Source: a virus. From it: a stretch of DNA of 20,226 bases. Position 1 is the first letter of the stretch, and every line of letters starts with the position of its first letter. Location: the IMG/VR virus record IMGVR_UViG_3300025879_000142, positions 1 to 20,226 of that record; one strand, written 5' to 3'. The position numbers were made by a program, and so were the translations under genes. This document shows positions 327 to 16,427 of the stretch, one piece after another. The notes beneath the pieces were generated by a model. It was not told the origin of the DNA. It saw only the letters and a program-made list of their open reading frames with translations, and ran no database searches.

Positions 327-3287
327 ATGGCAGTTAATGTTTCTAAGATACCTAATAGAAAAGACTTTGATGCAGTCAGAGAGGCTATTCTACAGGTAGA
401 TGCCAATGTATCAGAAATATTAGATGCAGAGGGACTTGTAAGTAGTGTAGCAGGTATTACAGGAGATGTATTAGTAACAGGTGATGCAGTATCTGTTAAT
501 GTAGCTACTAAGACAATCACAATAAATGCAGGTACTGCCAACGATGGGGTACTTACTATTGCACAGGGATCAGGTATTACTATATCAGATCCTAATACTT
601 TTTCAGCGAATCAATCTACGAATCGCACAATAACAATCACAAATAGTTCTCCTGACCAAATAGTTACTTGGTCGCAAGTAGGTAGTAACATAGCTATCAC
701 AGGAAACTATCCTAACTTTGCTGCTGATCTTACAGATACGGTTACTATTAGCGGTACACTTACTGCAGGTAACTTAACAACAGGAGGCACATTAACGGCT
801 ACTAATGTATCTGCTACTAATGGTACTTTTACTGACTCACTAACATTAGATGGTAAATCAGTAATTAATGAATTAAGTGCTAAGGGAGCAATTACCTTTG
901 AAGGGGTACAACAGATATCTGCTAATACAGATGCTTGGGGAGTAGAATCTCAGACTTGGGAATCTTCTACATTACCTGAAGGCACTACAAGTTTTACGAT
1001 CTTACATCAAGATACCTCTTCACAAGCTGATGTATATAACACAGGGGGTAATGTAATACAAAGCATAGGACTTGATACTTATGGTCATTTAGGCTCTATA
1101 GGCTCTACGGATTTAGACCAAAGGTATCTTGCGTTTAAGACGATATCTGTAGGTGGCACAGCCTTAGAGGCTGATGCCTACAACGATACATTAAGCATTA
1201 CTTCGAGTGACGGCATTACGCTTACTACGGGTAATGACTCTTTTAATATTGCAGGGGATGATAAGTTCAAGTTTATCTATACCTCTAATGATAATAATAC
1301 TGCTATACCTGACCAATTCAACGACACACTTACATTCTTAGGTTCAGGTGCAGTATCTGTTACTAAGAGTGCTACTGAGAACGAAATCAGATTTGGATTA
1401 GCAGTATCTGATATACGCTTTGAGGATGGTATTAGAGTATCAAGAGGATTTGTTTATTATGTGGGTAGCTCTGAAACAGTACCTACTGCAACTCCTACGG
1501 GTTCTACTTTTGACTTTACTTCTGACCTATTAACCATTAATGATTCAGACTTTAGCCTTACGCCTCCAATTACAGGATACAATCTTACTACTTACTATAT
1601 AGCAAGATTCACTTCAAGAGATGAGGGTGCAGGAACTACGGAATCAAGAAGCGTAACTTATTCTGCTATTGAAGATGCTACAGGATTCGAAAGTCCTGTT
1701 ACATTCAATGCTTTAACAGAGGGTCTTGGTAGTAAAGGATTCTCTATTATTGATGGAGGTAATATCAAGACGGGTATTATTCAGTCTATAGGAATCAATA
1801 GAGCGAATTTTGATGCAGGTACTTCTGTATTTACTCAAAGAGGCTCTTTCTTTGACTTAGGTAGCGGAGATATAGTAACACCAAACTTTAGCATAACAAG
1901 CGGTAATGCGGTTATGAGAGGGGTGTTTATAGCAGGTGATGGAACAGAGGTTAGTCCTGATGATATTATCGCTGCTCAAGCCTCTGCCGATGCTGCTCAG
2001 TCTACCGCAGATAGTGCTTCAACTGCTGCGAGTAATGCTCAATCTGATGCTGATGCTGCACAAACAACTGCTGATAATGCAGCTACCGCAGCAAGCAACG
2101 CTCAATCAACAGCAGACACAGCTAAGAATACTACAGACAAGTTAGAGAATGCATTTGCTACAATTAGCAATGATGTAATAGCAATACACGAACAGGGAGT
2201 TACTCCTGATTATGATGATGCAGATACTCCGTTCTATGTAGATAGTTCAGGTAACTTTAGTTTGGGTCAGAAGTTGTTATTTAACGGAACTAATTTAAAT
2301 GTAACAGGACAAATTACCGTTCAATCAGGTTCTACAATATCTTCAGACACTTTAATTGATGGAGAGGCTGCTTCAGTAATTAATACCAATGCTTCTAATG
2401 GTAATACAGCGTACGGAACTACTACTGACTTAGAAGATGTAGTTTTTATAACCTCTACTAAAATATATCAGGGTGCAGGTAACTTTGGTCTTGCAGATAC
2501 AGGGTTCTATCTTGATGATGCAGGTCAGTTCTCACTAAAGGACAAACTATCATTCAATGGAACTACCTTAACTGTTGATGGTAATGGTACTTTTACAGGT
2601 ACTTTAAATGCAGGAGATGTTACTATTCAAGAGGATGAGATTGTAGTTGACAACACAAGCGGAAGCAATATTACTTCTAAAATATCGTTTACTCAGTCCT
2701 CAACAGAAGTAGGTACGATAAAGGGTGGTAATGTAGCAGGAGGCACTGTATTTGGTGGTTTGTCTCTTGAGAGTTTAGGAGACAGATTAGAGATTAAAAA
2801 CTCTGATGCTGTAAATATAGAAGCCAACTATCTGTTTAACACAGGTAGGCTATACTATACTATGGAGGCTACTCAGATAAACAACCTTGCTGCTTTACCT
2901 GTACTGAAGTTTGATACTGCGGTAACAACCAATACTCCTTCGAGAGTAGTTACTGCTGAAATTACCGTTGGATTTACAGATGCAGGAGTTCCTAAATACT
3001 ATAAGGCTATTTATGTAAAGACATATATTCTATTAGTAGCACCTGATGGTTATCAAATGTCAAGTAGCTTTAAGAAATATGAAGAGGGAGATACAGGTCT
3101 TGGTATCAATGTAAGTACAGGTGGAACTTATGGTGAGTTCTTTATTGTAACTAACAACACAGGTTCTACTTCTAATGTTCAAATAAGCGTAGAGGTAAAA
3201 GGTAGGTTTGCTACCTATGATGAGGCACTACAATATTTAGACAATGGCTACTCAGGACCATTAGGAACAATAGGAACTATTTTGTAA
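327..3287 (+). CDS. Tail fibre / receptor-binding protein
   Basis: A 986-residue protein, the largest in the window. It is built of Thr-, Ser-, Gly- and Asn-rich beta repeats of the GTLTAGNLTTGGTLTATN type (residues about 135-170), typical of trimeric phage fibres. Residues about 548-605 form an Ala-rich alpha-helical coiled coil with repeated A-D-A-A-Q-S/T-T-A-D units. Next come two similar modules starting near residues 633 and 724, each with F-Y-x-D, F-S-L, K-L-x-F-N-G-T and L-x-V. The last 140 residues look like a globular tip. No enzymatic domain or chaperone domain is apparent. It is followed at once by the lysis genes, a usual place for the last structural gene of a tailed phage. The role is inferred from composition, length and context. 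Confidence 0.85.
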   Translation: MAVNVSKIPNRKDFDAVREAILQVDANVSEILDAEGLVSSVAGITGDVLVTGDAVSVNVATKTITINAGTANDGVLTIAQGSGITISDPNTFSANQSTNRTITITNSSPDQIVTWSQVGSNIAITGNYPNFAADLTDTVTISGTLTAGNLTTGGTLTATNVSATNGTFTDSLTLDGKSVINELSAKGAITFEGVQQISANTDAWGVESQTWESSTLPEGTTSFTILHQDTSSQADVYNTGGNVIQSIGLDTYGHLGSIGSTDLDQRYLAFKTISVGGTALEADAYNDTLSITSSDGITLTTGNDSFNIAGDDKFKFIYTSNDNNTAIPDQFNDTLTFLGSGAVSVTKSATENEIRFGLAVSDIRFEDGIRVSRGFVYYVGSSETVPTATPTGSTFDFTSDLLTINDSDFSLTPPITGYNLTTYYIARFTSRDEGAGTTESRSVTYSAIEDATGFESPVTFNALTEGLGSKGFSIIDGGNIKTGIIQSIGINRANFDAGTSVFTQRGSFFDLGSGDIVTPNFSITSGNAVMRGVFIAGDGTEVSPDDIIAAQASADAAQSTADSASTAASNAQSDADAAQTTADNAATAASNAQSTADTAKNTTDKLENAFATISNDVIAIHEQGVTPDYDDADTPFYVDSSGNFSLGQKLLFNGTNLNVTGQITVQSGSTISSDTLIDGEAASVINTNASNGNTAYGTTTDLEDVVFITSTKIYQGAGNFGLADTGFYLDDAGQFSLKDKLSFNGTTLTVDGNGTFTGTLNAGDVTIQEDEIVVDNTSGSNITSKISFTQSSTEVGTIKGGNVAGGTVFGGLSLESLGDRLEIKNSDAVNIEANYLFNTGRLYYTMEATQINNLAALPVLKFDTAVTTNTPSRVVTAEITVGFTDAGVPKYYKAIYVKTYILLVAPDGYQMSSSFKKYEEGDTGLGINVSTGGTYGEFFIVTNNTGSTSNVQISVEVKGRFATYDEALQYLDNGYSGPLGTIGTIL

Positions 3288-3530: not shown

Positions 3531-3789
3531 TGATAGTAGCTTATCAATAAACATCAAGTGGCTCATTCAGATAGTTATCTTAGTGGGTACTGCGGTTTAC
3601 TTGTACTTTGGACTTGAGAACCGAATTGCAGATAACGAAGATGAGTTAAAGAGTTTAAGATACAATCAGAACACTTACATATTCCCTGACATTAGAGTAT
3701 TAGAAAATGAGGTTATAGACTTTAAACTTGAAAGGGAGAGAGTTAGAAAAGATATACAGAGGCTAAGAGAAATAATAAACGAACGATGA
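3508..3789 (+). CDS. Single-pass membrane protein with coiled-coil tail, spanin-like
   Basis: A 93-residue protein with one membrane helix at residues about 18-36, followed by a long charged helical region (about 37-93) rich in Glu, Arg, Asp and Lys with heptad-like spacing. An N-terminal membrane anchor with an alpha-helical periplasmic domain is the layout of inner-membrane spanin subunits. It lies immediately before the endolysin, whose ATG overlaps its stop by four bases. I saw no lipobox-bearing o-spanin nested in it, so the spanin assignment is only a suggestion from topology and neighbours. Confidence 0.75.
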   Translation: MTAPKLNDDSSLSINIKWLIQIVILVGTAVYLYFGLENRIADNEDELKSLRYNQNTYIFPDIRVLENEVIDFKLERERVRKDIQRLREIINER

Positions 3790-4139
3790 GAAATTTTAAG
3801 TACGCAGAGTTTGACTCACCTGATGAAAAAGGTAGTGGTAAAAAAATGGACAAGGGTCTATTAAAGATGCTTGACCAAGCAAGGGATCTATACGGAAGCC
3901 CTATGACTATTACCTCAGGTTATCGAACAGAAGAGCATAATGAAAAAGTAGGAGGCAAGAAACACTCAAGCCACCTAAAAGGGTTAGCAGCAGACATAGC
4001 TTGTGATAACTCTACAGATCGATATAACCTTATAGATTCTTTAATGAAAGTAGGGTTTAATAGAATAGGTATTGCAGATACTTTTATTCATGTGGACATT
4101 GACCTTGATAAGGCACCTTTTGTAATTTGGACATACTAA
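3786..4139 (+). CDS. Endolysin, M15 family D-Ala-D-Ala type zinc peptidase
   Basis: A 117-residue compact peptidase predicted to cut the peptide cross-links of host peptidoglycan at lysis. Motifs of the M15 family are visible: T-S-G-Y-R (residues 43-47), then S-S-H-L-K-G-L-A-A-D (61-70), giving zinc ligands His63 and Asp70, and F-I-H-V-D (100-104), giving the third ligand, His102. The length is usual for a single-domain M15 phage endolysin, with no cell-wall binding domain. There is no signal peptide, so release must depend on a holin. It overlaps the preceding membrane protein gene by four bases and is followed one base later by a holin-like gene. Confidence 0.92.
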   Translation: MRNFKYAEFDSPDEKGSGKKMDKGLLKMLDQARDLYGSPMTITSGYRTEEHNEKVGGKKHSSHLKGLAADIACDNSTDRYNLIDSLMKVGFNRIGIADTFIHVDIDLDKAPFVIWTY

Positions 4140-4623: not shown

Positions 4624-4878
4624 ATGAGCGATATGGAAATTCAGGAGTTTACAGACAAGATATTAAGCTATAAAACTTATAGCGACAAGAGAAAAGTAGA
4701 TGCTTTGTTACATAAGGTAGCTACTATGTGGGCACACACAGGTACAGACTCTACTAAAAGCGAGATACAACAAGTACGCAAAAACTCAAGAGCCATATAT
4801 CGTGCTATTAAGCAGATAGATCCAAGATTCGGTGAATCACTACTAAGAACCGAGGACAAGGACTATGGCAAAGCGTAA
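4624..4878 (+). CDS. Hypothetical protein upstream of NinG
   Basis: An 84-residue, mainly helical, charged protein with no cysteine, membrane segment or recognised motif. Its ATG is the end of an AT repeat (TATATATATG); a second ATG nine bases further in is an alternative start. The reading frame overlaps the NinG-like gene by 14 bases, which suggests co-translation and perhaps a shared role in recombination. No function can be assigned. Confidence 0.75.
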   Translation: MSDMEIQEFTDKILSYKTYSDKRKVDALLHKVATMWAHTGTDSTKSEIQQVRKNSRAIYRAIKQIDPRFGESLLRTEDKDYGKA

Positions 4879-5248
4879 ACCTACAAGAAGCCACTTAGTT
4901 AAGAAGTTAGACACAGTATTCTCTCAGTATATACGAAGAAGATATGCTCAGGGAGATATAGCTACTTGCGTTACTTGTGGTAAAAAGGATCATTGGAAAA
5001 GAATGGATGCAGGACATTTCATGAGTCGCAAACACTATGCAACTCGATGGGATGAAGATAATGTACAGGTACAATGTAAATCTTGTAACCTATACAATCA
5101 GGGTGAGCAGTATAAGTATTCTATATTCTTGGGATCCGAGAAAGCTGAGGAATTACTTAGGAAGAGCAGAGAAACAGTTAAGTTCTCAGGATATGATCTA
5201 AACATGATGATAGAAAAATATCAGAAAAAACTTGCAGAGATGGACTAA
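4865..5248 (+). CDS. ninG: NinG-like recombination protein
   Basis: A 127-residue protein of the lambda NinG type (known in lambda as Rap, an endonuclease acting on recombination intermediates). It has a basic N-terminus, C-V-T-C-G-K (Cys35 and Cys38), D-A-G-H-F-M-S-R (residues 48-55) and V-Q-C-K-S-C-N (Cys71 and Cys74), the HNH-like zinc-binding core of the family. The C-terminal third is helical. It is shorter than lambda NinG (about 200 residues) but keeps the core. The preceding gene overlaps it, and a Bacteroidota-type promoter lies across its 3' end, directed at a probable small RNA. Confidence 0.88.
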   Translation: MAKRKPTRSHLVKKLDTVFSQYIRRRYAQGDIATCVTCGKKDHWKRMDAGHFMSRKHYATRWDEDNVQVQCKSCNLYNQGEQYKYSIFLGSEKAEELLRKSRETVKFSGYDLNMMIEKYQKKLAEMD

Positions 5249-6773: not shown

Positions 6774-7685
6774 ATGATAGTAAACATAGATGAGCAACTA
6801 CAGAAGATAAAGGACATACGGACAGGTAAGATTAAGGAGGGTTTAAAGTTAGGGATCGAGAGTATAGATGAGTTTCTTAGGTTTAAGCCCTCTAATTTTA
6901 ATGTCATATTAGGACACGCGAATGTGGGTAAGACTACGGTAATTATGTACTTGATGTTATTGTACGCAAGACAACACAATGTGAAGTGGTTGGTGTATAG
7001 TTCAGAGAACGAACCCTACACACTTATACGCAAGTTTATCGAGTTCATAGAAGCCGAGCCTATAAACAGAATAGAGATGGCAACTATAGAGACACATACG
7101 GCATGGATTAACGAGCATTTTAAGTTCATTGACCCTAATGTACTACATTCGTACAAAAGTCTCTTAGAAGTCGCTAATACGGTTCTGAAGCAATGGAAGT
7201 ATAACGGACTATTAATAGATCCGTATAATAGTTTAATGAAAGACAAAGAGTTTACAAGCATGAACGGACACGAGTACGACTACATGGTTACAAGTGAACT
7301 CAGAGTATTTTGTAAAACGAATAGTGTAACTATATGGCTTAACACCCATGCAGCTACAGATGCATTAAGAAAGAAACATAGTCAAAGAGAACAATACGAG
7401 GGGCATCCTATCCCACCAATGGCTTCAGATGTCGAGGGTGGTGGTAAGTTTGTCAATAGAGCAGATGACTTTTGGGTTATACACCGATACATTCAGCATC
7501 CGACAGATTGGATGTATAGTATGATCCATGTACGAAAGGTGAAAGATATAGATAGTGGAGGCAGACCCACACCTATAGATGCACCGATCATGTTAAGAAG
7601 CATAAAGAACAATGTAGGGTTTACAATAGGAGGCAGAAATATTATTGATGTTAAACCTAAAGTAACACAGAACCTACCATTTTGA
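6774..7685 (+). CDS. DnaB-type RecA-fold replicative helicase (helicase domain only)
   Basis: A 303-residue ATPase. The P-loop is G-H-A-N-V-G-K-T-T (residues 47-55), and a Walker B-like strand, G-L-L-I-D-P-Y-N-S-L (145-154), follows. H-x-x-T-D/H-x-R-K-K-type basic residues (about 193-206) and G-G-G-K-F-x-N-R-A-D-D (221-231) match the DnaB/KaiC/RecA-like helicase core. There is no N-terminal DnaB domain or primase, so it is about two thirds of DnaB length. It is expected to unwind phage DNA at the fork. The C-terminal tip, Q-N-L-P-F, resembles that of the SSB-like protein encoded just upstream. Confidence 0.85.
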   Translation: MIVNIDEQLQKIKDIRTGKIKEGLKLGIESIDEFLRFKPSNFNVILGHANVGKTTVIMYLMLLYARQHNVKWLVYSSENEPYTLIRKFIEFIEAEPINRIEMATIETHTAWINEHFKFIDPNVLHSYKSLLEVANTVLKQWKYNGLLIDPYNSLMKDKEFTSMNGHEYDYMVTSELRVFCKTNSVTIWLNTHAATDALRKKHSQREQYEGHPIPPMASDVEGGGKFVNRADDFWVIHRYIQHPTDWMYSMIHVRKVKDIDSGGRPTPIDAPIMLRSIKNNVGFTIGGRNIIDVKPKVTQNLPF

Positions 7686-9974: not shown

Positions 9975-10238
9975 ATGCAATATAATGCAGATATATTAGG
10001 TGCTTTAGATTTAGTAAAGAAGTGGTCAGAGAAGAGTTCAAACGAAGAGATCAAACTCATGACTAAGTTTATACTAAACATAGCATATTTTGTAAATGGA
10101 CTAACTATGGAGCGTAAGGGTTTTGATATGGTCGTGGATGAGCAACACAAGATTGTACGGCAAAGAGATCTAAAGATCCGTGAGTTAGAAGAGAGAATAA
10201 GAGAACTTGAGTTGAATCTAAAAATGGCAGAAGAATGA
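9975..10238 (+). CDS. Helical protein of unknown function
   Basis: An 87-residue protein from the start at 9975. The ATG at 9957 is an alternative but lies on the expected transcription start. The N-terminal two thirds are mixed helical and hydrophobic (F-I-L-N-I-A-Y-F-V-N-G-L). The last 35 residues form a charged coiled coil with L-K-I-R-E-L-E-E-R-I-R-E-L-E-L-N-L. It has no known motif. Its stop overlaps the start of the exonuclease gene by four bases, so the two are probably made together. Confidence 0.7.
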   Translation: MQYNADILGALDLVKKWSEKSSNEEIKLMTKFILNIAYFVNGLTMERKGFDMVVDEQHKIVRQRDLKIRELEERIRELELNLKMAEE

Positions 10239-10960
10239 TTTTATTAGTGGACGCAGATAGCTTGATATGGTCAAGTTGTTACAAGACAAAGCGAGAACCT
10301 GATGAGTCTATATTCTTTGAGAATATCACAGATGCTTATGATAAGTTTGATGAGGTATTCATGAAGATTATAAACGACATAGAGGAGAACCACTACCCTG
10401 TAGATGAGGTAGAGGTCTTTGCTAATAGCAGGGGAAACTTTAGGAAGTACATATACGACAAGTACAAGGCTAACAGGAAAAGGAGAGAGTTACCTCCGTT
10501 GTTACCTTTTATGCAGAAGTATGTAGTAGATACTTACAATGCTACTTATATGTACGGAGTAGAAACAGATGATGTGGTAGCTTCTAAGTGGAAGATTTTA
10601 TCGGAAGAACATGGGAGAGAGAATGTAATGATCGTATCTATTGATAAAGACTATAAGCAGTTCCCTTGTTTGTTGTATAATTACCATTCGAATCATAGGT
10701 GCGTATATGACATCAATGATTGGCAGGCGATGTACAATTTCTATGGGCAAATGATTACAGGAGATACGGCAGACAATGTGAACTTTTGTGTAGGGTATGG
10801 GCAAAGATGGGTAGAGAAGAACCTTAGCACTTGTGAAACACACTTTGAGTTTACTAAGGCGGTGTTTAAATTGTACAAGAATTTATACAAGAGCAAGGCA
10901 AGAGAGAAGTATATTCAATGTTATAACCTTTTAAAACTAAGAGATAATTTGTATGATTGA
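10235..10960 (+). CDS. FEN-type 5'-3' exonuclease
   Basis: A 241-residue nuclease of the PIN/FEN superfamily, expected to remove RNA primers or flaps and resect phage DNA during replication or recombination. Metal-binding acidic residues are in the expected order: L-V-D-A-D (Asp6, Asp8), an arch-like basic segment Y-K-A-N-R-K-R-R-E (77-85), V-E-T-D-D-V-V-A (Glu110, Asp112, Asp113), S-I-D-K-D-Y (Asp137, Asp139) and T-G-D-T-A-D-N (Asp177, Asp180). The length is close to the usual size of stand-alone phage FEN proteins. It overlaps genes on both sides. Confidence 0.88.
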   Translation: MILLVDADSLIWSSCYKTKREPDESIFFENITDAYDKFDEVFMKIINDIEENHYPVDEVEVFANSRGNFRKYIYDKYKANRKRRELPPLLPFMQKYVVDTYNATYMYGVETDDVVASKWKILSEEHGRENVMIVSIDKDYKQFPCLLYNYHSNHRCVYDINDWQAMYNFYGQMITGDTADNVNFCVGYGQRWVEKNLSTCETHFEFTKAVFKLYKNLYKSKAREKYIQCYNLLKLRDNLYD

Positions 10961-11102
10961 AGATGATTTAGTACCTGATTGGCAGAAGGAAAACAGGAAT
11001 TATGTTACAGGATGGTGTATGTGGACAGAGAAAGTATATCAGACTAAGTTGAATAATAACCAAATGAGAAAATATTACGGACAATATGAATACGAAAATT
11101 AA
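10953..11102 (+). CDS. Small protein of 49 residues
   Basis: A short open frame starting at an ATG eight bases before the exonuclease stop and ending 17 bases inside the next gene, filling what would otherwise be a gap in a gapless operon. The protein is polar and aromatic (W-Q-K-E-N, G-W-C-M-W-T-E-K-V-Y-Q, Q-M-R-K-Y-Y-G-Q-Y). It has no recognised motif. Coupling by overlap and the lack of any other content support it as a real gene; function unknown. Confidence 0.6.
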   Translation: MIEDDLVPDWQKENRNYVTGWCMWTEKVYQTKLNNNQMRKYYGQYEYEN

Positions 11103-11541
11103 GAGAAGAGATAAGAAGTTTACAAGAGCATTAGCAGTAGCTAACAAAGTAGTAGAACTAACAGGTCAAGACATATTTAGTAATTCAAGGAAACACGCAG
11201 TTATTGATGCAAGATCCTTGTTAAACTACCTATTGTATAACAATCTTGATTTTACACTACATGAGATCAAGGAGTTTTATGAGAATGAGGGTAAGAGTTA
11301 CGATCATGCTACTGCATTACACTCCCTAAACAACTTTGCAGTTTATAGGAGATCTAACCCTAACATGGATTCATGGTTAGTACAACTTAGTGCAGAATAC
11401 ACTACGGTAAAAGCTAAGATTAATATGTTGGTACAGAACATTATGACACTACAGGAGAACGATGTAGATGTATTGTTAGATATATCAAAGAGGATGTACG
11501 AAAAACACGAATCGTTAGAGTCAGCCAAAATTGTTAAATAA
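11086..11541 (+). CDS. DnaA domain IV-like replication initiator
   Basis: A 151-residue protein with a DnaA C-terminal (domain IV) DNA-binding module. S-R-K-H-A-V-I-D-A-R-S-L-L-N-Y-L-L (residues 34-50) and F-T-L-H-E-I-K-E-F (56-64) are followed by K-S-Y-D-H-A-T-A-L-H-S-L (70-81), the signature helix that reads the DnaA box. There is no AAA+ domain, so it is not a DnaA homologue over its full length. Such proteins in phages probably bind an origin or control replication. The C-terminal half (95-151) is helical and could mediate oligomerisation. It is the last gene before the ATTCGTTATATA motif. Confidence 0.78.
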   Translation: MNTKIKRRDKKFTRALAVANKVVELTGQDIFSNSRKHAVIDARSLLNYLLYNNLDFTLHEIKEFYENEGKSYDHATALHSLNNFAVYRRSNPNMDSWLVQLSAEYTTVKAKINMLVQNIMTLQENDVDVLLDISKRMYEKHESLESAKIVK

Positions 11542-11556: not shown

Positions 11557-12177
11557 ATGAAGCAAAAAGTTACCATTGACAAAATACACAAGAATTCTGA
11601 CAACCCACGAACGATCAAGGGTGTTAAGTTTGAGAAACTTGTACAAAGCATTAAGGAGTTACCTAAGATGCTTGAGAAACGACCTATTGTGGTAGATGAA
11701 AACTATGTGATACAAGGAGGTAACATGAGATACTTAGCTTGTATTGAAGCAGGACTTAAGGAAGTATGGATTGACAACATGGAAGATTGGACTGAAGAGG
11801 AGAAGAGGCAGTTTATCATCAAGGATAATGTTAGCTTTGGGGAATGGGACTTTGATATGCTTACTTCAAGCTACGATGCTTTAGAGTTAGATCAGATGGG
11901 TGTGGATCTTGATCCTAATATGTTCAAGGTCGAGATAGATGAGGAGCAATACGAGCAATCAGTAGATACTAAGTTTAACGACTACACTATATACTTTGCA
12001 AACGAGGAGGAGATGGATATTTGGTACGCATTTTTGAAGAGGTTGAAAAACAAGTTCTCAGATTACGAGAATGTTTCAGAGCGTGTACTAAGATATATTG
12101 CTGAGGTTTATGAGGACAACAATATGCCTGAAAGCAAAATGATACTCAAGTTTATTCAAGGTGATATAGATGGCTAA
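11557..12177 (+). CDS. ParB-like nuclease-fold protein (IbrB-like)
   Basis: A 206-residue protein. Residues about 5-90 form a ParB/Srx-type domain: N-S-D-N-P-R-T-I-K (13-21), R-P-I-V-V-D-E-N-Y-V-I-Q-G-G-N-M-R-Y-L-A (42-61) with the G-G-N-M-R nucleotide or catalytic motif at 54-58, and I-I-K-D-N-V-S-F-G-E-W-D (about 87-98). The C-terminal part is acidic and helical. It overlaps the PP-loop gene by eight bases. ParB-like and PAPS-reductase-like pairs are known as IbrB/IbrA in an E. coli prophage and recur in phages, where the biochemical role is unsettled. It is not a chromosome partition ParB, since no ParA is nearby. Confidence 0.8.
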   Translation: MKQKVTIDKIHKNSDNPRTIKGVKFEKLVQSIKELPKMLEKRPIVVDENYVIQGGNMRYLACIEAGLKEVWIDNMEDWTEEEKRQFIIKDNVSFGEWDFDMLTSSYDALELDQMGVDLDPNMFKVEIDEEQYEQSVDTKFNDYTIYFANEEEMDIWYAFLKRLKNKFSDYENVSERVLRYIAEVYEDNNMPESKMILKFIQGDIDG

Positions 12178-13294
12178 GAAAGAAGATTTAATATACTTAG
12201 ACCAAAATGTCTATGAAGCGGCATTAGAACGCATAGACAGGATCTACAATAGTCATGATGAGGTATGGGTTAGCTTTTCAGGAGGGAAAGATAGTCTTGC
12301 TATGCTCAAACTTGTAGAAGAGTACTTTGATAATGAGGGAATCTCAGATAAGATCAATGTGCTATTTAGAGATGAGGAGATGATTAACTCCTTTGTACGA
12401 GATTTTGTAATGACCTTTAGGGATAACCCACGATACAACTTTAGGTACTATGCTACTCCATTAGAGTCAGAGATATACATCTTAGGAGAGAAGCGTAAGT
12501 ACATACAATGGGATCCAAACAGGGAATGGATCATACCTAAGCCTGAAGGATCTATAACATTGAAGGGTGTTTACAATCAGAACAACTTTGATAAAGTGGT
12601 GTTTGAGAAAACCAACAAGAGGGTATGTACCATGATTGGGATACGAGCATCAGAGAGTCTTATGCGATTTGCAGGTATTACGATGAGTAAGGTATCATAT
12701 CTAACGAAGAACCCTAACCTAAAGAACGGAACACTTGGTAAGCCACTATATGATTGGGAGGAGAAAGATATCTTCAGGTACTTCTACGATAAGAATATCG
12801 AGTATTGTCAGGTTTATGATATGCAGATATTTAACAAGGATAGTCTAAGGGTAGCTACAGTTTTACACGCAGAAGCAGCCAAACAGTTATACAAGGTTAA
12901 GACCATTGACCCAATATTGTACAATCAGATCATGAATGTATTTCCTGAGGTGGAATTACAGGCACGATACTACAAGGATGTGATTAAAGGATCTACAGAG
13001 AAGATTATCTATGAGTTTAAGGAAAAAGCAGGAGGCGATCCATGGGGTGCTATCTTGTTATACATCCAAGAGAAACTTACAGATGAGTATCAATACAAGA
13101 CTGCTATGAATAGGATAGCAAGATGTAGAATCACGAGAAAGAACAGGTGTACCCCTAAAAACCCATTTGGTGGTTACCCTGCATATTACTTGTTTGGTCA
13201 GATCATTAGTGGAGCCTACAAGAGAAACATAATACCAACCCCTGAACAGAAAGATATATACTTTGAGTATGAAAATATGTCCCTTAGAGCATAG
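12170..13294 (+). CDS. PP-loop ATP pyrophosphatase, PAPS reductase-like (IbrA-like)
   Basis: A 374-residue protein of the PAPS reductase / PP-loop superfamily. The ATP-binding PP-loop is S-F-S-G-G-K-D-S-L (residues 35-43). A second conserved stretch, C-T-M-I-G-I-R-A-S-E-S (about 159-169), is typical of the phage and IbrA-type branch. The classic PAPS reductase ending with a C-G-I-H motif is absent. A C-terminal A-R-C-R-I-T-R-K-N-R-C-T-P-K-N-P-F-G-G is present. These proteins adenylate a substrate, in many cases for sulfur transfer; the substrate here is unknown. The neighbours, a ParB-like protein upstream (8-base overlap) and a GNAT enzyme downstream (26-base overlap), argue for one functional unit. 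Confidence 0.83.
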   Translation: MAKKEDLIYLDQNVYEAALERIDRIYNSHDEVWVSFSGGKDSLAMLKLVEEYFDNEGISDKINVLFRDEEMINSFVRDFVMTFRDNPRYNFRYYATPLESEIYILGEKRKYIQWDPNREWIIPKPEGSITLKGVYNQNNFDKVVFEKTNKRVCTMIGIRASESLMRFAGITMSKVSYLTKNPNLKNGTLGKPLYDWEEKDIFRYFYDKNIEYCQVYDMQIFNKDSLRVATVLHAEAAKQLYKVKTIDPILYNQIMNVFPEVELQARYYKDVIKGSTEKIIYEFKEKAGGDPWGAILLYIQEKLTDEYQYKTAMNRIARCRITRKNRCTPKNPFGGYPAYYLFGQIISGAYKRNIIPTPEQKDIYFEYENMSLRA

Positions 13295-13658
13295 TCAGGT
13301 TTACAGAAGATTTGCTAAGTATATGCGGATCGAGAGAGTGGCGATCAAGAAGCAAGATGAGAATACTGAATATTTAGGAGTCATAGAAGATGAGCAGGTT
13401 ATTGCAGTAGTCGGATGGCAAAAGATATCAGAGGATCATATAAGGCTAAAGACAGACTATGTAGCCAACGGATTTAGAAAGCAGGGACACTACTCTCGTT
13501 TGTGGGACTCAAGAATTATTGCTATCTTAAAGTATGAGCCAAAGGTATTGTCGGCATATTGTACCCCTATGAGTTTGCCAAAGTATCTAAAGGAAGGCTT
13601 TAAGGTAGTATCAACGAATAAGCAGGGTATAGCTTATGTAAAAAAACAACTTAATTAA
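13269..13658 (+). CDS. GNAT family N-acetyltransferase-like protein
   Basis: A 129-residue protein. V-I-A-V-V-G-W-Q (residues 44-51), D-Y-V-A-N-G-F-R-K-Q-G-H-Y-S-R-L-W (63-79) and a late Y-L-K-E-G-F-K-V-V (106-114) follow the order of the GNAT fold. The R-K-Q-G-H-Y pattern corresponds to the acetyl-CoA-binding Q/R-x-x-G-x-G/A loop. The ATG at 13269 is preferred over an upstream TTG at 13263. It overlaps the PP-loop gene by 26 bases and completes the ParB/PP-loop/GNAT cassette. The acceptor substrate cannot be read from sequence; modification of DNA, nucleotide or protein are all possible. Confidence 0.72.
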   Translation: MKICPLEHSQVYRRFAKYMRIERVAIKKQDENTEYLGVIEDEQVIAVVGWQKISEDHIRLKTDYVANGFRKQGHYSRLWDSRIIAILKYEPKVLSAYCTPMSLPKYLKEGFKVVSTNKQGIAYVKKQLN

Positions 13659-13659
13659 C

Positions 13660-13788
13660 ATGGAGAAAAGACTAAAGGAATTAGAAAGACTTGTAGATTG
13701 GTATAGTAATTATGCCGATTATGTAGAGTATCACTACAGGAATGTGAACAACTCAGCTATTGATTATGCTAATAAATGTCAAGAGTAA
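13660..13788 (+). CDS. Small protein of 42 residues
   Basis: An open frame that begins one base after the GNAT stop and ends at the TAATG junction with the next gene. The protein starts M-E-K-R-L-K-E-L-E-R-L, a probable helix, and continues with tyrosine-rich sequence (W-Y-S-N-Y-A-D-Y-V-E-Y-H-Y). No motif is recognised. Its tight fit between two genes and the stop-start overlap support it as real. Confidence 0.6.
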   Translation: MEKRLKELERLVDWYSNYADYVEYHYRNVNNSAIDYANKCQE

Positions 13789-14042
13789 TGAAAGCAGTAT
13801 TAGAATTTGATTTACCAAGAGAAGATGCTGATCTAAGAGTTGCTATTGATGGTAAACATTGGCAACAGATACTTCATAATGTTCAGAATTATGTTTGTGA
13901 ATTTAGAGATATGTGCAGAGACAAAGAAGATAAGAACGAGGAGTTAATAGATGCTTTACAGGCAATAAACTACTACATTATAGAGCAGAAATCTGAACAT
14001 GATGTGGTTTATCAATGGGATGCAATAAAAGAGGAAGAATGA
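13788..14042 (+). CDS. Conserved small phage protein beginning MKAVLEFDLP
   Basis: An 84-residue protein from the start at 13788 (the ATG at 13776 is an in-frame alternative). The beginning M-K-A-V-L-E-F-D-L-P-R-E-D is shared by a widespread family of small phage proteins of unknown function. The rest is helical and charged, with Y-V-C-E-F-R-D-M-C. The chosen ATG overlaps the previous stop as TAATG, and the stop overlaps the next start as ATGA, so translation is probably coupled on both sides. Confidence 0.72.
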   Translation: MKAVLEFDLPREDADLRVAIDGKHWQQILHNVQNYVCEFRDMCRDKEDKNEELIDALQAINYYIIEQKSEHDVVYQWDAIKEEE

Positions 14043-14437
14043 GGAACTACAAACAATGGAGTGCAGAGTTTAGAAAGGAGTCATTAAAGCTAACTAACAA
14101 GGCAAAGAAGTTAGGATGGATCAAACAACCTACCAAGTGCTGCAAATGTGGTCAAGACAAAGGGATCATACAACTGCACAACGAGGATTACGATGCAACC
14201 TACTATACCTTACGAGATGCGTTTAATAGGTTCCCCATAGACATTACAGAGGAAGAACTACAGAAGGTCAATGATGCGTTATTAGAGTTATGTTGGAGAT
14301 GCCACATGATGCACCATAGCAAACACAGAAACGCAGAGGCAGTAGAGCAATATTTTCAGGAGGTAAAAGCAGGTAAGCAATACCCTCCTGTATATAGACA
14401 CGATTTTGATATATTAAAAAGAGACCATAATGTTTAA
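14039..14437 (+). CDS. HNH-like zinc protein upstream of the terminase genes
   Basis: A 132-residue protein from the ATG at 14039, chosen because it overlaps the upstream stop by four bases; the ATG at 14015 is an alternative. It has a treble-clef or HNH-like core: C-C-K-C-G-Q (a C-x-x-C pair), I-I-Q-L-H-N-E-D-Y, and later L-E-L-C-W-R-C-H-M-M-H-H (a second C-x-x-C followed by His residues). Phage HNH proteins next to terminase genes are known to assist DNA packaging in HK97-like phages. Whether this variant keeps nuclease activity is not clear, since the spacing differs from classic HNH enzymes. Confidence 0.72.
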   Translation: MRNYKQWSAEFRKESLKLTNKAKKLGWIKQPTKCCKCGQDKGIIQLHNEDYDATYYTLRDAFNRFPIDITEEELQKVNDALLELCWRCHMMHHSKHRNAEAVEQYFQEVKAGKQYPPVYRHDFDILKRDHNV

Positions 14438-14942
14438 AGAAGATCCAATAAGTAATGTACAATGGGTGGATGCAGAGAAACTCAATGCAAACGACTACAA
14501 CCCAAATGTAGTACTGAACAAAGAATTGCAGTTATTAGAACTGAGCGTACTAAAGAATGGGTGGATCCAACCTGTGTTAGTGAATAAAGATTACACGATC
14601 ATAGATGGGTACCACAGAAGTTTTTTGTCAAGAACAAGCAAAGCCCTCAAGGAAAAGTATGAGGGAAAGGTACCCTGTGTAGTAATGGATCTAACCGAAC
14701 CTGAAAGAATGTTACTGACTATTCGTATTAACAGAGCAAAGGGTAACCATATTGCAGTTAAGATGCATGATATAGTCAAGACACTTATAGATAAGCATGA
14801 GGTATCAGTAGATTACATTTGCAAGAGTATAGGTGCAGGAAAAGATGAGGTAGATCTATTGTACAAGGATGGGGTATTTGATGCGTTGAATATAAAAGAA
14901 CACAAATACAGCAAAGCATGGAAGAGTCCGAGAACGGTTTAA
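14430..14942 (+). CDS. ParB-like domain protein adjacent to terminase
   Basis: A 170-residue protein with an N-terminal ParB/Srx-type domain: L-N-A-N-D-Y-N-P-N (residues 18-26), L-E-L-S-V-L-K-N-G-W-I-Q-P-V-L-V (36-51) and I-I-D-G-Y-H-R-S (57-64), the D-G-x-H-R motif of the fold. The C-terminal half (about 100-160) is helical, with an I-C-K-S-I-G-A-G-K-D-E-V segment. This type sits next to small terminase genes in many phages and may act in DNA recognition for packaging or in modification. It differs clearly from the ParB-like protein at 11557-12177. It overlaps both neighbours (8 and 25 bases). Confidence 0.8.
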   Translation: MFKEDPISNVQWVDAEKLNANDYNPNVVLNKELQLLELSVLKNGWIQPVLVNKDYTIIDGYHRSFLSRTSKALKEKYEGKVPCVVMDLTEPERMLLTIRINRAKGNHIAVKMHDIVKTLIDKHEVSVDYICKSIGAGKDEVDLLYKDGVFDALNIKEHKYSKAWKSPRTV

Positions 14943-15292
14943 TGCAACAAAAGCAACACATAAAAAAAGAGAAATTCATTGAGGCATTAGAGCAGTCAAT
15001 GGGTATCATAAGTCATGCAGCTAAGAAGATAGGAGTAGATAGGACTACACCCTATAGATGGATGCGTGAAGATGAGGAATATAAGAAACGAGTAGATGAG
15101 GTACTTAATGTGCCTTTAGACTTTGTGGAGAGCAAACTATTTGAAGCAATTAATCACAACAACATAACTGCTATTATATTTTATCTAAAGACCAAAGGGA
15201 AGCATAGAGGCTATGTAGAGCGACATGAACTGACAGGTATTGATGATAAAGATATAAAGGTAGAGATTGAAGTACTCCGTACAGACAAATAA
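14918..15292 (+). CDS. terS: Terminase small subunit
   Basis: A 124-residue protein expected to recognise phage DNA for packaging. Residues about 18-55 contain a helix-turn-helix: F-I-E-A-L-E-Q-S-M-G-I-I-S-H-A-A-K-K-I-G and V-D-R-T-T-P-Y-R-W-M, typical of the phBC6A51-type small terminases. A region that may form the oligomerisation core follows (about 70-105, with F-Y-L-K-T-K-G-K-H-R-G-Y). The C-terminus is acidic. It lies directly before, and overlaps by 26 bases, the large terminase gene, the standard order. Confidence 0.85.
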   Translation: MEESENGLMQQKQHIKKEKFIEALEQSMGIISHAAKKIGVDRTTPYRWMREDEEYKKRVDEVLNVPLDFVESKLFEAINHNNITAIIFYLKTKGKHRGYVERHELTGIDDKDIKVEIEVLRTDK

Positions 15293-16427
15293 GGTATTTG
15301 ACCATTTACAGGAGAGTGATAGCCGCTTTATTGTAGAACAAGGAGGTACGAGGTCAGGAAAGACATATAACATCCTGACATGGATCATCTTTGTCTATTG
15401 TATGAAGAAGAGAGATAAGATTGTTACTATCTGTCGTAAGCACGGACCGTCATTAAGAGGTTCCTCTATGAGGGACTTTTTTGATATACTGCAAAAGCAT
15501 AATCTCTACAGGGAAGAAAATCACAGTAAGAGCCTTAATGAGTACAAACTATTTGGTAACCTTGTAGAGTTTATTTCTTTGGATGAGCCTCAGAAGGTGA
15601 GAGGTCGTAAAAGGGATCTGTTATTTGTCAATGAGGGTAACGAGATTACTAAGGAGGATTTCTTTCAGCTAAACATCCGTACTACAGAGAGGATCATACT
15701 TGACTACAACCCATCGGATGAGTACCATTGGATATACGATGACTTGATTACGAGGGATGACTGCGACTTCCATGTAACAACCTACTTAGACAATCCTTTC
15801 TTAGATCCTACCCTTATTCAGGAGATAGAGAGATTAAAGGACACAGATGAGACCTATTGGCAAGTATATGGATTAGGTCAGCGTGGTGTATCTAAGGCTA
15901 TCATCTTTAACTATATGGAAGCAGATAAGATCCCTGAGGATGCAGAGTTTCTTACCTATGGAATGGACTTTGGATTTACTAACGATCCAACTGCATTAGT
16001 AGAGATTTACCAAAAGGGATTTGACCTGTATGTTAGAGAACTACTCTACAGGACTATGATGCACGCCAACGATATAAACTCTAAGTTTAAGCAGATCGGT
16101 GTAGGAGGCAAGACTATATACGCAGACTCAGCAGAACCAAGACTCATAGATACCTTGAGAAGGATGGGTTGGAATATCAGACCAAGTACTAAGGGACAAG
16201 ATTCAGTAAGAGCCTCTATAGACTTATTAAAGAGGTATAGGATCCATGTAACAAAGGATAGCAACAATTTGATACAGGAGATAAGAAACTACAGATGGAG
16301 AGAAGATAAGACAGGTAAGCTACTCAATGTTCCTGTTGATGGCAATGATCACTTGATCGACAGTCTTAGGTATGGTACATATAGTGTACTAAGTAAGCCT
16401 AACTTTGGTAAGTATGTCATCAGATAA
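15267..16427 (+). CDS. terL: Terminase large subunit
   Basis: A 386-residue packaging motor. The ATPase Walker A is G-G-T-R-S-G-K-T (residues 26-33). R-D-L-L-F-V-N-E-G-N-E (about 110-120) is the Walker B with the catalytic Glu. The RNase H-like nuclease domain starts near Y-G-M-D-F-G-F-T-N-D-P-T-A-L (about 231-244), with I-Y-A-D-S-A-E-P (about 287-294) and a last acidic motif, G-N-D-H-L-I-D-S-L-R-Y (about 355-365). The length is on the short side but complete. Translation starts at TTG (15267), inside the small subunit gene; no ATG is available before the Walker A motif. No portal or capsid gene follows in this window. Confidence 0.93.
   Translation: MKYSVQTNKVFDHLQESDSRFIVEQGGTRSGKTYNILTWIIFVYCMKKRDKIVTICRKHGPSLRGSSMRDFFDILQKHNLYREENHSKSLNEYKLFGNLVEFISLDEPQKVRGRKRDLLFVNEGNEITKEDFFQLNIRTTERIILDYNPSDEYHWIYDDLITRDDCDFHVTTYLDNPFLDPTLIQEIERLKDTDETYWQVYGLGQRGVSKAIIFNYMEADKIPEDAEFLTYGMDFGFTNDPTALVEIYQKGFDLYVRELLYRTMMHANDINSKFKQIGVGGKTIYADSAEPRLIDTLRRMGWNIRPSTKGQDSVRASIDLLKRYRIHVTKDSNNLIQEIRNYRWREDKTGKLLNVPVDGNDHLIDSLRYGTYSVLSKPNFGKYVIR

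Follow-up and report, generated by a model that had tools for sequence, protein, structure and literature searches.

A PP-loop gene of the IbrA type, carried by a virus record, was found to belong to a co-evolving set of phage genes with a two-way slot: one position in the set (here called X) is held by either a GNAT acyltransferase or a SAM methyltransferase, the two sharing this one slot and, presumably, one substrate. Our preferred explanation, put forward tentatively and at rather less than an even chance, is that this five-gene phage cassette (ParB1, short IbrA, X, HNHl and IbrB) modifies DNA around replication and packaging. A fuller version, in which the cassette represents a new class of phage DNA hypermodification, with a PP-loop/ParB core making a reactive group, an interchangeable X finishing it, an HNH-like partner reading or protecting the product and phages swapping X, is possible but, in our view, doubtful.

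The cassette and its neighbours

The window, by which we mean the whole stretch of DNA analysed, is a virus record of 20,226 bases from IMG/VR and is probably a fragment (an incomplete genome). The cassette lies in it in the order ParB1 - short IbrA - GNAT - HNHl - IbrB, followed by terminase genes:

11557..12177, + strand: ParB1, ParB/Srx-like protein, not IbrB; upstream partner of the short IbrA (ParB_N, weak at 1.8e-4)
12170..13294, + strand: short IbrA, PP-loop ATP pyrophosphatase of the PAPS-reductase superfamily, without DUF3440 (PF01507, 2.3e-12)
13263..13658, + strand: GNAT acyltransferase, in slot X (PF13673, Acetyltransf_10, 1.5e-5)
14015..14437, + strand: HNHl, small HNH-like zinc protein (phrog_2255, 5.8e-5)
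14430..14942, + strand: IbrB, the YbdM/IbrB-type ParB partner of IbrA (phrog_2159, 1.5e-67)
14918..15292, + strand: terminase small subunit-like protein, adjoining the cassette (phrog_4044, 2.4e-8)
15267..16427, + strand: terminase large subunit, adjoining the cassette (Terminase_3, 5.7e-21; Terminase_3C, 2e-14)

The ParB1 and IbrA ORFs (206 and 374 aa) both start with ATG and overlap by 8 bases; the GNAT ORF (131 aa), which overlaps that of IbrA by 32 bases, has a TTG start with an alternative in-frame ATG at 13269. The first-pass annotation had taken these three overlapping genes (11557-13658) as one block with its own promoter-like motif. The ORFs are real, as their coordinates were reproduced and their order is kept in dozens of other viral contigs, and they do belong together, but the block was closed too early at 13658, since HNHl and IbrB are part of it. 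The promoter-like motif was not borne out: the 13 sigma-70-like sites in the region match the chance number (12.9 in shuffled sequence), and the 15-base gap before 11557 contains no promoter-like site.

The gene before ParB1 (11086-11541) encodes a helix-turn-helix resembling that at the C-terminus of DnaA (3.4e-6); several close relatives retain this gene, and its product is possibly a regulator or replication protein. Between GNAT and HNHl lie some 350 bases (13660-14014) with two small ORFs, which are absent from close relatives such as loci L004 and L009. Elsewhere the window encodes a tail fibre (327-3287), an endolysin-like peptidase (3786-4139), a NinG-like junction nuclease (4865-5248), a DnaB-like helicase (6774-7685) and a 5'-3' exonuclease N domain (10235-10960).

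Two ParB genes and a short IbrA

The first two genes had been likened to an IbrB/IbrA pair. This stands for 12170-13294, an IbrA relative which matches YbdN (29% over 262 aa, E 2e-22) and the profile phrog_2302 (3.1e-85); it does not stand for 11557, as the true IbrB is 14430-14942. YbdN-YbdM of E. coli K-12 is the chromosomal relative of IbrA-IbrB, and the 14430 protein aligns with YbdM over its whole length (35% identity over 169 aa, E 6e-30), while the 11557 protein gives a 24-residue match to YbdM at E 0.35. The combination of the IbrB motifs NxYNPN, DGFHR and NRAxGxH with YbdM homology and an IbrA neighbourhood is found in 14430-14942 and not in 11557-12177.

The distribution of matches among phages agrees with this assignment. 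Those of the PP-loop protein fall in phages of Flavobacterium (90), Mycobacterium (55), Arthrobacter (12), Bacillus (6), Microbacterium (5) and Rhizobium (4), and the 14430 ParB has identical numbers for each host; the 11557 ParB mostly matches other phages, for example those of Lactococcus. ParB1 matches phrog_498 (7.5e-23), and also phrog_940 and phrog_620, its nearest relatives in the PHROG profile search being ParB domains of phage DNA methyltransferase proteins; it has a C-terminal stretch in common with other ParB proteins encoded upstream of IbrA, with which it was aligned.

The window IbrA gives no match to DUF3440 (PF11922), which is strong in YbdN and in the Streptococcus phage IbrA. 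In short IbrA proteins SGGKDS is invariant and the GIRAxES and DWxExD elements are conserved. A role in sulfur chemistry, hinted at in the first-pass annotation, is not what these proteins suggest: they have one near-invariant cysteine (Cys213, in 44 of 45 sequences), the catalytic ECGxH motif of the CysH PAPS reductase is absent from all 45, and none has an Fe-S cysteine set. The structural model (pLDDT 88.7) matches best to human FAD synthase (Z 18.9, rmsd 3.2 over 171 residues) and then to an ATP sulfurylase subunit (Z 17.2, rmsd 2.8 over 166 residues), with FMN adenylyltransferase and PAPS reductases further down. DndC is absent from the fold lists, which by itself proves nothing. These modelled folds would fit cleavage of ATP between its alpha and beta phosphates with transfer of AMP, and not sulfur transfer, a shared fold being no proof of a shared reaction.

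Conservation of the cassette among viral loci

Viral contigs were gathered with IbrA and IbrB alignments, so that selection was on IbrA or IbrB and not on X. All ORFs in about 170 loci were searched with family HMMs, and the loci were reduced to a non-redundant set (90% IbrA identity). Sixty-two loci of this set had a short IbrA with enough flank to be counted; they are largely environmental contigs, in which families are called by HMM. ParB1 lies upstream in 59 of the 62, IbrB is present in 61, HNHl in 50 and X in 49, and terminase genes stand beside the cassette in many loci. The core must be able to work or persist alone, as 13 of the 62 have no X. By comparison, all 32 long-IbrA control loci have IbrB, but one has a GNAT and none has the methyltransferase or HNHl. 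A survey of how far the ParB, PP-loop and GNAT families co-occur in phages had been proposed with the original annotation, their failure to do so being given as grounds for giving up the idea; instead the gene order is kept, with ParB1 in 59/62 and GNAT in 33/62. The idea that these genes, the GNAT among them, co-operate in a modification cassette holds up well; that its target is DNA is our inference.

Slot X is filled by a GNAT or a methyltransferase

The GNAT had been singled out earlier as the least expected member of the block. Least expected it is, but it is also the most informative, because its slot holds a GNAT in 33 of the 62 short-IbrA loci and a SAM methyltransferase in 16; the other 13 have neither, and no locus has both. 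The absence of overlap would have P 2.5e-7 if the loci were independent, a value inflated by kinship among them. On the IbrA tree the two labels need 15 changes; the starred branches require the GNAT label to have been gained or lost 10 times or more and the methyltransferase label 8 times or more, the sister pairs L012/L089 and L051/L053 (support 98-99) differ in which of the two they carry, and the labels cluster no more than shuffled ones. X has therefore been exchanged many times.

The window GNAT is modelled with an ordinary GNAT fold (pLDDT 95.7), with hundreds of GNAT matches in the PDB, and its relatives are under purifying selection (dN 0.13-0.44 against dS 0.9-1.5). In the CoA-binding R-x-x-G region, Arg72 is nearly invariant, and Gly75, present in the window copy, is missing from some relatives. 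We considered and rejected homology to Mom: comparison with Mu Mom gave an hhalign probability of 0.4%, and a Salmonella phage Mom surfaces merely as a general GNAT fold match. Two different GNAT members used as queries found no match in annotated phages, so that all examples of the GNAT form in this analysis come from environmental contigs, apart from one in a metagenome bin.

The alternative occupant of the slot (L011:6070-6621, alignment A6) is a compact methyltransferase with a class I SAM loop, DLxxxxGLL, an invariant ARR and a conserved EGR. The absence of an NPPY-type motif sets it apart from the usual adenine or cytosine amino-methylases, and its chemistry may, judging from these motifs, be unusual. 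Ten proteins from the empty loci yielded no other filler of the slot, save an HD-domain gene in L006 and L121. These belong to a small clade without X or HNHl (L006:7713-8270; L121:4410-4925), in which a gene of 210-220 aa without a family match and the HD-domain gene lie between IbrA and IbrB.

HNHl accompanies X

In 50 relatives HNHl shows the pattern CxxC..HxEDY..CxxCHxxxH, with two CxxC pairs and three invariant histidines; their alignment favours a start at 14039 over that at 14015. The family is highly diverged, the Pfam HNH model reaching one of the 50 members (at 0.0026), and sequence search found no relative of solved structure. HNHl is present in 47 of the 49 loci with X and in 3 of the 13 without (p 1.6e-7), and independent pairs on the IbrA tree favour the association in 5.7 cases and contradict it in 0 (median p 0.03). 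In 35 of 45 cases no more than 60 nt separate the end of X from the HNHl start, the commonest arrangement being an ATGA overlap. The X-HNHl pair itself varies in position, standing between IbrA and IbrB or after IbrB. A GNAT-HNHl fusion ORF (L222:4629-5411, 260 aa) was not counted as evidence of interaction, since a single additional T within the TTT run where the two parts meet would suffice to produce it, and the ORF may be an error.

Distribution in phages and bacteria

Alignments of the methyltransferase and of HNHl proved too diverged to scan the collection with, and single sequences took their place as queries. The methyltransferase matched 16 of 50,697 phage records (Arthrobacter 9, Bacillus 6, Mycobacterium 1) and HNHl matched 5 (Rhizobium 4, Mycobacterium 1), and every one of these records also matches IbrA; carriers of the methyltransferase form include Bacillus phage 031MP004 and Arthrobacter phage Salgado, while Mycobacterium phage Gadjet has the core and no X. 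Scanning viral contigs with one HNHl gave 14 loci, 7 of them on contigs already surveyed; 13 have IbrA, and the remaining one is on a truncated contig, where a methyltransferase adjoins HNHl. In 84,980 bacterial and archaeal genomes we found at least four clear cases of short IbrA: two in Nocardia, one in Kribbella and one in a metagenome bin. Of these four, all but the Kribbella case, where the contig ends inside IbrA, have the full cassette. The rarity of short IbrA in these genomes suggests that this is mainly a phage system. No description of the cassette was found in the open-access papers that our search covered; the 2013 survey of phage DNA modification systems by Iyer and colleagues reportedly discusses PP-loop enzymes.

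A proposed route to modified DNA, and its rivals

We propose that IbrB and ParB1, as ParB/Srx-type nucleotide- and DNA-binding proteins, would place the complex on DNA, where the short IbrA, judging from its fold and motifs, could convert ATP to AMP and pyrophosphate and adenylylate an oxygen of a base or phosphate. Replacement of the adenylylated oxygen by a nucleophile would then leave a new group, such as an amine, which X could cap with an acyl group (by the GNAT, in the window) or a methyl group (by the SAM methyltransferase, in other phages). That X acts on the IbrA product is suggested by its being tied to the short IbrA and yet exchangeable between two group-transfer chemistries. HNHl would partner X, either as a subunit delivering it to DNA or as a nuclease sparing decorated DNA, and a phage that swapped X might alter the final mark and so evade host nucleases adapted to the old one.

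We prefer DNA to RNA or small molecules as the target for three reasons: the ParB proteins belong to types linked with DNA, HNHl is similar to proteins that act on DNA, and ParB-domain genes accompany CmoX and CmoY, enzymes of proven phage base hypermodification (PMC12783734). For the GNAT in particular, a protein, RNA or small-molecule substrate is possible instead.

It is unlikely, but worth weighing first, that the target is instead a free nucleotide or RNA, such as tRNA or rRNA of the host, modified for anti-defence or host takeover, with X capping the IbrA product. PP-loop enzymes often act on tRNA, and TilS, TtuA and NcsA are among the IbrA fold matches; GNATs and SAM methyltransferases are, moreover, common RNA modifiers. 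However, the two ParB-type proteins and the HNH-like protein point to DNA, domain and profile searches found no RNA-binding domain in the five cassette proteins, and the adjoining terminase genes of many loci also speak against an RNA target.

The next reading, also unlikely and ranked below that of RNA, is of a regulator: late transcription or packaging would be under the control of IbrAB together with ParB1, and the substrate of X would be a protein, for instance RNA polymerase or IbrB. Database records do label relatives 'co-activator of prophage gene expression', the cassette lies at the late-gene boundary, and Rac of phiKMV is an example of a phage GNAT that acetylates RNA polymerase (PMC7824862). 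Such regulation would nevertheless leave unexplained why GNAT and methyltransferase exclude each other, why HNHl goes with both and why a full PP-loop ATP pyrophosphatase is needed.

More improbable again is that X and HNHl are an independent accessory pair, a cargo module that happens to occupy a preferred insertion site next to IbrAB and the terminase. The 13 loci that have IbrAB and ParB1 without X would fit this, as would the two positions of the pair. Yet the pair was never seen away from IbrA, the methyltransferase and HNHl phage records all having IbrA too, and it is missing from long-IbrA loci, while a free cargo module should occur elsewhere as well.

Finally, a phosphorothioation-like or other sulfur insertion of the Dnd/Ssp kind is very improbable, for although a PP-loop enzyme here accompanies a ParB-superfamily protein, as DndC does DndB, and there are weak DndC profile matches (34 bits; 27 bits against a cut-off of 290), the lone near-invariant cysteine without an Fe-S set contrasts with the Fe-S centre and cysteine dyad that DndC requires (PMC10853773), and desulfurase, DndD and DndE were not found among the window proteins searched, from what is an incomplete genome.

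Returning to our preferred reading of DNA modification, IbrA and IbrB remain proteins without a settled function, and annotation continues to place phage 'PAPS reductases' in sulfur metabolism. A short-IbrA branch locked to an acyl-/methyltransferase slot and an HNH-like partner offers a testable modification pathway, against the sulfur reading, and predicts marks in culturable phages, such as the Bacillus and Arthrobacter phages named above. If the target is DNA, the swapping of X would visibly document an arms race with nucleases that sense modification.

Comparison with known systems

The IbrA/IbrB pair of E. coli prophages and YbdN/YbdM of K-12 are alike in setting a PP-loop enzyme beside a YbdM-type ParB, both clearly homologous to those of the cassette, which differs in its short IbrA without DUF3440, in the additional ParB1, X and HNHl, and, in the window, in having X and HNHl between IbrA and IbrB. 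Long-IbrA loci of Streptococcus and Flavobacterium phages (e.g. CHPC1062 and FCL-2) have the IbrA-IbrB pair in common with the cassette, but there DUF3440 is present and a SNF2/helicase-type gene lies directly upstream (L018:3836-5005, L019:3243-4454).

Mom of phage Mu works without IbrAB. This phage DNA modification enzyme is of the GNAT superfamily (PMC7824862), which it has in common with the window GNAT, with no detectable sequence relation between them.

Dnd, Ssp and BREX type 4 systems combine a PAPS-reductase-like PP-loop enzyme with a ParB-superfamily protein, some with an HNH nuclease (PMC11662687, PMC12839542), and in Dnd and Ssp systems HNH-bearing sensors accompany these proteins (PMC11662687). 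In contrast, the cassette is without the Fe-S cysteines, no desulfurase or ABC ATPase was found with it, and it adds an acyl- or methyltransferase.

The CmoA-CmoX-CmoY system of cytosine hypermodification uses unrelated enzymes, and its handle is first made by a carboxymethyltransferase (PMC12783734). It nonetheless resembles our proposal in the ATP-dependent decoration of a handle on the base, in the frequent presence of a ParB-domain gene nearby and in a final group that is variable (PMC12783734).
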